Source of the DNA: a virus
Length of the DNA stretch: 30,792 nt
Strand: one strand, 5' to 3'
Virus record (IMG/VR): IMGVR_UViG_3300032236_001533
Coordinates: 1-30,792 of that record
Positions 10,884-13,767 of the stretch are shown here, one piece after another. A program made the translations under genes and the position numbers. The notes under the pieces were generated by a model. The model had not been told where the DNA came from. It saw only the letters and a program-made list of their open reading frames with translations, and did no database searches. Position 1 is the first letter of the stretch, and every line of letters begins with the position of its first letter.

Positions 10884-10958
10884 TGCTCTTTAGTATAATG
10901 GCTATTATGACTCGCTTTGAACGAGAAGACGGTGGTTCAATTCCATCAAGAGCAGCCA
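10884..10958 (+). tRNA. tRNA-Gln (TTG)
   Basis: Acceptor TGCTCTT/AAGAGCA, anticodon stem CTCG/CGAG around CTTTGAA (TTG, reads CAA/CAG), T stem GGTGG/CCATC with TTCAATT, discriminator G, CCA encoded. Confidence 0.93.
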
Positions 10959-10965
10959 ATTTAAT

Positions 10966-11162
10966 GAGTCTGTAGCTTAATTGATATCTGAAACCGATAA
11001 TTTGGTTGCATGTGACTGAATTATAAGAAAGTAAGATGCGTTGAACACATCGGGATAATCAAATTTCGTGTTTGATTATTGAAGTAATTCAACTGAGTGT
11101 GTATTACGAAAGCACCAACCCTAAGAAGGTAGATATGGGTACGAATCCCATTAGACTCACCA
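10966..11162 (+). tRNA. tRNA-Leu (AAG) with large D-loop insertion
   Basis: Acceptor GAGTCTG/TAGACTC, T stem ATGGG/CCCAT (loop TACGAAT), discriminator A and CCA frame a 197-nt unit. D stem GCTT near 10977 pairs with AAGC near 11112. The anticodon arm CAACC/GGTAG around CTAAGAA (AAG) follows normally. About 130 nt therefore sit in the D loop, with hairpins ATAATT/AATTAT, GATAATCAAA/TTTGATTATT and TTGAA-gtaa-TTCAA. No group I or II core is recognised. It may be an unknown intron, or the tRNA may work with the insertion. Confidence 0.68.
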
Positions 11163-11165
11163 ATT

Positions 11166-11477
11166 TTGACACAAGCGATCCTACGCTGAGATTATATCTT
11201 AGAGGAAGTTCGATGCTGCACAGCAGATGATTGGGAGAATGTAAGTTAACTTCATATTGCCCATAATGATTAAAAGATTGCAATTCCGTGGAAGCAAGGA
11301 GCAGTCCGGTTAACCTTAATTCGATAACACCACAAATTAGCAGTAATCCTAAAGTGTCCGAGTGTAGTGCTGCACGTTATCAGGACAAGGTTGGAGCAGC
11401 AATTTTTAACAAATTGCCAATAGAAATATTGAGATAAATGTAGGAATAGAACAGAACATCGGCTACGGCTATGTCAA
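11166..11477 (+). ncRNA. rnpB: RNase P RNA (bacterial type A-like)
   Basis: Catalytic RNA that cuts 5' leaders from pre-tRNAs. P1 is TTGACA (11166-11171) with TGTCAA (11472-11477). P2 is TCCTAC (11179-11184) with GTAGGA (11440-11445). P3 is the hairpin CTGAGAT-tat-ATCTTAG (11186-11202). The conserved GAGGAAGTTCG is followed by P4: CGATG (11211-11215) with CATCG (11457-11461), inside ACAGAAcATCGGCTAC, which matches the 3' conserved box of bacterial RNase P (ACAGAA-CCGGC-UUAU), with the bulged T beside P4 kept. A P8-like hairpin (TGGG/CCCA) and GGAGCA box lie between. At 312 nt it is slightly shorter than host RNAs. It sits right after tRNA-Leu and may use a host or no protein partner. Confidence 0.85.
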
Positions 11478-11481
11478 TTTC

Positions 11482-11568
11482 AACACAAACACCCGAAAGA
11501 AGTATTTCATAAGGGTTTGGGCGCATGTGCCGCATTGCTTTTTAGCGTATAATAGCACGGTTTGTGTT
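11482..11568 (+). ncRNA. Stem-closed RNA downstream of RNase P RNA
   Basis: AACACAAAC (11482-11490) pairs perfectly with GTTTGTGTT (11560-11568). Inside are ACCC/GGGT and GTGC/GCAC hairpins. No T-run follows directly. It could be a 3' extension of the RNase P transcript, a terminator-like structure or a separate small RNA. Confidence 0.45.
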
Positions 11569-11630
11569 AGATTAATTTTGTATAAAAAATAATTCGAACG
11601 TTCATTCTTTTCTTACATATTTATGTATGT

Positions 11631-13390: not shown

Positions 13391-13767
13391 GGGCACATAC
13401 TGGTATCGATTTAATATACTAGATATGCTAGGCATGTGGAAGATGATGGTTGGCTTCCTTAAAAATCCATTAAAAACTAAATGCAGAAGAAGTAATTGCA
13501 TATGACCTCGTCGCTGACGAAGTCGCAGTCGTAGCCTAATTTTAGGTTATCCAGTTGTTATAAGATATCTGATAATATAATAACTGACATTAATCAGAGT
13601 AAATAATAAAATTTGATTGTGTTTTATTATTGACCTTTAAGCAATCTCAAGGATAGTCTTGTTAGACATTTGTTATGACTATCACAAATAAAAGAAAATG
13701 TATAAACATGTAGTCTGGTATAGTTAATATGTTAAAGACACGGGTTCAACTCCCGTTGTGTCCACCA
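13391..13767 (+). ncRNA. ssrA: tmRNA (one-piece) with 18-residue tag
   Basis: tmRNA rescues stalled ribosomes and tags the nascent protein. Acceptor GGGCACA (13391-13397) pairs with TGTGTCC (13757-13763), with the third pair G-T, the alanine identity element. T arm ACGGG-TTCAACT-CCCGT, discriminator A, CCA encoded. The 5' end (CTGGTATCGA) follows the tmRNA CTGGATTCGAC pattern. AAAAACTAAAT precedes the resume codon GCA at 13483, aligned with AAAAAATAGTC of E. coli. The frame then encodes AEEVIAYDLVADEVAVVA and stops at TAA 13537. The tag is longer than the 10-residue E. coli tag but ends in the usual small hydrophobic residues. Pseudoknot-rich 3' half follows. Confidence 0.92.

Follow-up and report, generated by a model that had tools for sequence, protein, structure and literature searches.

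The window analysed here, a stretch of 30,792 nucleotides of viral DNA (IMG/VR record IMGVR_UViG_3300032236_001533), carries 28 predicted tRNA genes and a tmRNA gene (13391–13767; RF00023, 103.9 bits) on one strand throughout. All features of the window described below lie on the plus strand. The upstream part of the array includes a tRNA-Gln gene (10884–10958) and an interrupted tRNA-like gene (10966–11162), the CCA end of which directly precedes an RNA extending from 11166 to 11477. The 3′ half of the tRNA-like gene scores 21.3 bits as a tRNA. It has a GAGTCTG acceptor strand, an ATGGG/CCCAT T-arm and a TAGACTC-ACCA end, and its apparent interruption of approx. 120 nt has no intron match in Rfam; no anticodon arm was recognised. 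Just 3′ of the RNA follows an element of approx. 90 nt (11484–11573) that is conserved in contigs L001, L003, L009, L010 and L044. Its closing stem has changed on both sides (CACAAAC/GTTTGTG, GACAAAC/GTTTGTC and GGACAAAT/ATTTGTCC) and it has no match in Rfam; judged from these paired changes, it is a structured RNA of no known family. The tag encoded by the tmRNA ends in VVA, as compared with VAA or LAA in relatives. The window itself is a fragment without terminase or portal genes, but phage-type protein families are present.

A preliminary description of this DNA had assigned the RNA at 11166–11477 to RNase P and proposed that P1, P2, P3 and P4 all form. The coordinates proved exact, running from P1 to P1′, and the four helices were all recovered. 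P1 pairs TTGACA (11166–11171) with TGTCAA (11472–11477) and shows compensatory changes in relatives. P2 pairs TCCTAC (11179–11184) with GTAGGA (11440–11445); all 90 pairs are kept in 15 RNAs, with two-sided change at three of six positions, and the GC after its 5′ strand leads into P3 in relatives. The P3 hairpin (CTGAGAT/ATCTTAG, 11186–11202), which closes on the first G of GAGG, likewise keeps all of its pairs (75/75 in 15 RNAs). CR-I (11202–11215) consists of GAGGA and the P4 5′ strand AGT[T]CGATG with the bulged T at 11210, and CR-V (11451–11464) of ACAGAA and the P4 3′ strand CATCGGCT. On either strand, the alignment of P4 with E. coli AAG[U]CCGGG/CCCGGCUU is gap-free, the bulged U being kept, and 128 of 128 pairs as well as the bulged T are retained in 16 RNAs. 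The two-sided change from the E. coli helix that had been proposed for P4 (CGATG/CATCG) is real, and relatives add the paired types CGCTG/CAGCG, CGCGG/CCGCG, CGCCG/CGGCG, CGGGG/CCCCG and CAGGG/CCCTG. The bulged T and ACAGAA are kept as described, whereas the supposed CGGCTA box is the P4 3′ strand extended by a single base. A descriptor combining GAGGAA, an 8-bp bulged P4 and ACAGAA matched once in the window and never in 400 dinucleotide shuffles (both strands), which is more than expected by chance.

The remaining elements of the catalytic domain follow in order. The 5′ strand of P5 (CTGC, 11216–11219) pairs with GCAG (11340–11343), which together with J5/15 (TAA) occupies 11340–11346; the helix occurs as CTGC/GCAG, CATC/GATG, CTCC/GGAG and CTTC/GAAG, with 64 of 64 pairs kept. 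The P6 pseudoknot joins CAGCA (11221–11225) to TGCTG (11368–11372) in the P17 loop and is found as CAGCA/TGCTG, AAGCA/TGCTT and TAGAA/TTCTA (80/80 pairs). P15 (TCC 11347–11349/GGA 11393–11395) encloses P16 (GTCC 11356–11359/GGAC 11383–11386), P17 (GTG 11362–11364/CAC 11373–11375) and the GGU motif (11389–11391). All pairs are kept in P15 and P17 (48/48 each) and 62 of 64 in P16, a generous count since partners were picked for best pairing. Between P15 and P18 lies an extra hairpin (GCAATTT/AAATTGC, 11399–11417) with two-sided changes in relatives. P18 itself (CAATA-GAAA-TATTG, 11418–11431) is capped by a GNRA loop and is missing from L028, L069 and L039; J18/2 (AGATAAAT) and the 3′ strand of P2 complete this part (11432–11445). 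In the three near-identical RNAs of L004, L006 and L007, P18 exceeds 100 nt. The overall order is P1, P2, P3, P4, P5, P6, a variable slot, P5′, J5/15, P15, P16, P17 with P6′ in its loop, P16′, GGU, P15′, the extra hairpin, P18, P2′, P4′ and P1′. A first assignment, in which ACCACAAATTAGCAGTAATCC represented CR-II/CR-III and the hairpin at 11399–11417 represented P15, left the GGU motif missing. It was dropped because covariation in P5, P6 and P15 identifies GCAG-TAA-TCC as P5′-J5/15-P15, with GGU present.

These counts rest on segmentation by hand of 16 RNAs with several helix types per helix. Shuffles of the individual helices P2, P4, P5, P6 and P15 gave only weak support because there are few distinct helix types. 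In an alignment of seven RNAs, 92.8% of the paired cells were paired, and two-sided change was found at 33 of 55 pairs, compared with 15.7±2.4 after shuffling and 3 to 11 with the partner strand slid. The tested structure was drawn from one of the seven aligned RNAs, which introduces a somewhat favourable bias. P1, P2 and P3 are present in fixed order together with the P2/P4 pseudoknot, as are the class A hallmarks P6, P16 and P17, which class B RNase P RNAs do not have, and the catalytic elements are kept in all 16 segmented RNAs. By comparative sequence evidence, the RNA is a full class A catalytic domain comprising P1 to P6, P15 to P18, both pseudoknots, the bulged U and GGU. The preliminary description did not include P5, P6 and P15 to P18, nor did it mention that the specificity domain is almost entirely lost or that a wider family exists in phages.

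The slot that would hold the specificity domain (11226–11339) has conserved edges, GATGATTGGGAG and ACCACAAATTA, and a variable middle. The E. coli specificity domain measures approx. 150 nt; the slot comprises 114 nt in the window and 40 to 168 nt in relatives. No clear fold and no match to the P7–P14 helices was found in the 114 nt of the window. L069, L020, L036 and L047 have a shape consisting of the catalytic domain only. In L046 (minus strand; reverse complement from 3359), the slot contains a reading frame of 48 codons. It has two CxxC motifs, resembles a small zinc ribbon and has its stop codon within the RNase P RNA itself.

The test suggested in the preliminary description, a search with the bacterial class A model RF00010 (gathering score 100 bits), failed on the window, which gave no match at E≤10 and nothing even at permissive thresholds. 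RF00010 was equally silent on the window's own group, and a cmscan of the window against all Rfam families revealed no match to the Pyrobaculum-type minimal RNase P RNA. Rfam matches to SCARNA7 and sRNA P1 were dismissed as chance. Single-sequence folding energy of the RNA was ordinary (z = −0.59). Given the silence of RF00010 and the ordinary folding, the sequence alone would leave the RNase P claim open, and the proof lies in the comparison with relatives.

R1, a covariance model built from seven RNAs with the window's own clade excluded, matched the window at 11160–11484 with 207.6 bits (E=2e-58). It also recovered bacterial rnpB at the positions found by RF00010 in Acinetobacter, Acidithiobacillus and a mislabelled 'Microcystis phage' record (L022). 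The scores of these three bacterial sequences were 32.4 bits for L022 (E=1.7e-7), 21.4 bits for L023 (E=2.7e-4) and 13.3 bits for L078 (E=0.007). Another Acidithiobacillus match (L021) sits in a dnaX-like gene and was rejected as chance. Across 60 whole Pseudomonadota genomes, searched with stricter filters, R1 produced a single weak match of 24.1 bits, indicating that R1 alone is insensitive to ordinary rnpB. From the other side, RF00010 matched relatives in a gradient with E-values from 4e-54 to 3e-8. L038 and L045 lie above the cut-off (162.5 bits each, E=4e-54), followed by L049 (66.7 bits), L039 (63.9), L066 (59.1), L025 (48.6), L028 (44.1), L069 (42.3), L024 (37.3) and L050 (26.6). L069 is additionally matched by the archaeal RNase P model RF00373 (E=1.7e-9). 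As far as homology can be read from sequence, the RNA at 11166–11477 is an RNase P RNA homologue, supported from both sides, the intermediates being the main support. The identity originally proposed was thus upheld by the held-out model and by the relatives that match Rfam, not by RF00010 on the window.

Relatives were collected by pattern searches of viral DNA. A 22-base P4 pattern yielded seven stretches and a second pattern two more; a relaxed P4 pattern returned 55 stretches, in part overlapping the earlier finds, and a descriptor requiring a matching downstream P4 partner approx. 30 contigs. The covariance model added L048, L051, L059 and L061. In total, approx. 35 IMG/VR phage contigs besides the window carry such an RNA, near-duplicates counted; the whole viral collection was not searched with the model. 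A BLAST search of 50,697 phage records revealed no relative, and the first 50 kb of the jumbo phage XacN1, which has many tRNAs, contained no R1 match. Within the tRNA array of XacN1 (L079), 2.5 kb (36560–39053) are without any annotated feature.

Several carriers are long, namely L008 (303 kb), L039 (358 kb), L040 (365 kb) and L061 (350 kb), although all are metagenome contigs and possibly incomplete. Terminase (PF03237) was found in 13 of the 29 carrier records searched, and the T4-type portal protein (PF07230) also in 13 of 29, compared with none of 14 control genomes. Carriers encoding both are, on the strength of these protein families, large T4-like phages, and the presence of these genes on related contigs corroborates the earlier view that the gene is phage-borne. 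The same applies to its proximity to tRNA genes, seen in the window and at 28 of 30 relative loci scanned, where tRNA genes often exceed ten; several members of the window's group also have a tmRNA. In L001 a tRNA-Gln gene ends a few bases 5′ of the RNase P RNA, and in L028 and L033 a tRNA gene lies directly 3′ of it. The protein subunit RnpA (PF00825) was not found in the window or in 28 related contigs, but a phage partner could have been missed as the contigs may be incomplete.

Compared with bacterial class A RNase P RNA (RF00010; E. coli M1 RNA), the phage RNA has the same order and topology of P1 to P6 and P15 to P18, both pseudoknots, the bulged U, CR-I, CR-V, J5/15 and GGU. It differs in being unseen by RF00010, in the replacement of P7 to P14 by a variable slot, in the extra hairpin before P18 and in being encoded by a phage. 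The closest natural analogue is the minimal RNase P RNA of Pyrobaculum, reportedly described by Lai and coworkers in 2010. In this RNA, termed type P, nearly all of the specificity domain is absent while the catalytic domain is present (PMC4919922). It is archaeal and cellular, whereas the phage RNA keeps the class A elements P6, P16, P17 and usually P18; no alignment between the two was made. In CPR bacteria, RNase P RNAs have diverged and lost several helices, and they were found only at lowered Rfam thresholds (PMC8172020). Those described are cellular and lack P12 to P14, P18 or P15, whereas the phage RNA has lost the specificity domain nearly whole. The engineered E. coli catalytic domain (CP RPR) shares with the phage RNA the removal of the S-domain, the P6-type pairing and a dispensable P18; CP RPR is stimulated by C5 (PMC5839562). 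CP RPR is a laboratory construct, and the phage RNA looks like its natural counterpart, its activity being inferred.

What the RNA does has to be deduced from what it has kept. Established RNase P work assigns the binding of metal and of the cleavage site to P4 with its bulged U, CR-I and CR-V, binding of the tRNA 3′ CCA to GGU, and binding of the residue at the cut to the AA of J5/15. All of these pieces are kept in the phage RNA, and CCA is encoded by 26 of the 28 tRNA predictions in the window, which fits the kept GGU motif. We therefore consider it likely that the phage RNase P RNA, essentially a catalytic domain, matures the phage tRNAs and tmRNA together with host RnpA, with transcription, catalysis, partner and substrates all being inferred. 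The RNA would be transcribed together with the tRNA array, fold into the class A core (P4 with bulged U, CR-I, CR-V, P5-P6-P15-P17 and the GGU loop), bind the host RNase P protein and cleave the 5′ leaders of the many phage pre-tRNAs and of the tmRNA, a likely substrate in the same array. With a reduced specificity domain, contacts to the T-loop would have to count for less than the acceptor stem, the GGU-CCA contact and the protein. Pre-tmRNA is among the substrates of bacterial RNase P (PMC4919922). The E. coli catalytic domain without S-domain still cleaves, approx. 100-fold more slowly on a model substrate; C5 stimulates it strongly, a pairing of the P6 type is used and P18 can be dispensed with (PMC5839562). 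The pattern in the phage family, with P6 kept and P18 sometimes lost, parallels these results and was counted in favour of a ribozyme; the 100-fold slower cleavage was counted against it.

Since no RnpA was found on the phage contigs, the host protein should be the one bound, and the RNA might instead act as a mimic without catalytic activity, sequestering host RnpA, slowing maturation of host tRNAs and aiding shut-off. The reduced specificity domain would agree with such a decoy. We regard this as improbable, because the active-site elements (P4 with its bulged U, CR-I, CR-V, the AA of J5/15 and GGU), retained together with the helices, go beyond what a decoy needs and the RNA is located among tRNA genes that require processing. 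There is also only a slim chance that the ribozyme acts on particular phage transcripts, such as interrupted tRNAs, tmRNA or the downstream structured element, rather than on tRNAs generally. The domain that reads the T-loop is reduced and unusual RNAs adjoin on both sides (10966–11162 and 11484–11573), but GGU is kept for the CCA that 26 of 28 tRNAs encode, and arrays lie near 28 of 30 loci. A degraded or passing host rnpB copy without function, as the variable slot and the long inserts in some members might suggest, is very unlikely, since almost all helices have changed in a compensatory manner among approx. 35 contigs, which excludes neutral decay, and no R1 match in the 60 Pseudomonadota genomes came near phage scores (best 24.1 bits).

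Beyond the proposed maturation of phage tRNAs and tmRNA with host RnpA, a wider scenario is possible but remains tentative. Large T4-like phages may maintain a widespread lineage of natural bacterial-type RNase P RNAs that are little more than a catalytic domain, making tRNA and tmRNA maturation independent of the host RNase P RNA and perhaps of its protein too.

A full-text literature search, outside the coverage of which most subscription papers fall, did not reveal any description of a gene for RNase P RNA in a phage or other virus. Two candidate precedents were rejected. One is 'Microcystis phage MaAM05, complete genome' (L022, MW495066.1), a record that resembles a bacterial contig and has a full rnpB along with fliM, glyS and fabI in the stretch read. 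The other is the rnpB of Acinetobacter phage MD-2021a, which appears to be host DNA next to a prophage. Stretches resembling rnpB also occur in the gut 'Bacteriophage sp.' records H4 and H5. Our results suggest that the phage RNA is a variant form of RNase P RNA that is new within the literature searched. As most such RNAs fall below the Rfam threshold, more of them probably remain unannotated. RNase P RNA is a near-universal ribozyme, one of few, and in the papers searched it was reported only from cells and organelles. The phage family offers a small (approx. 200 nt) ribozyme of the bacterial type for mechanistic and structural work, and a form carried by viruses would extend the takeover of translation by phages from tRNAs and tmRNA to the enzyme that processes them.
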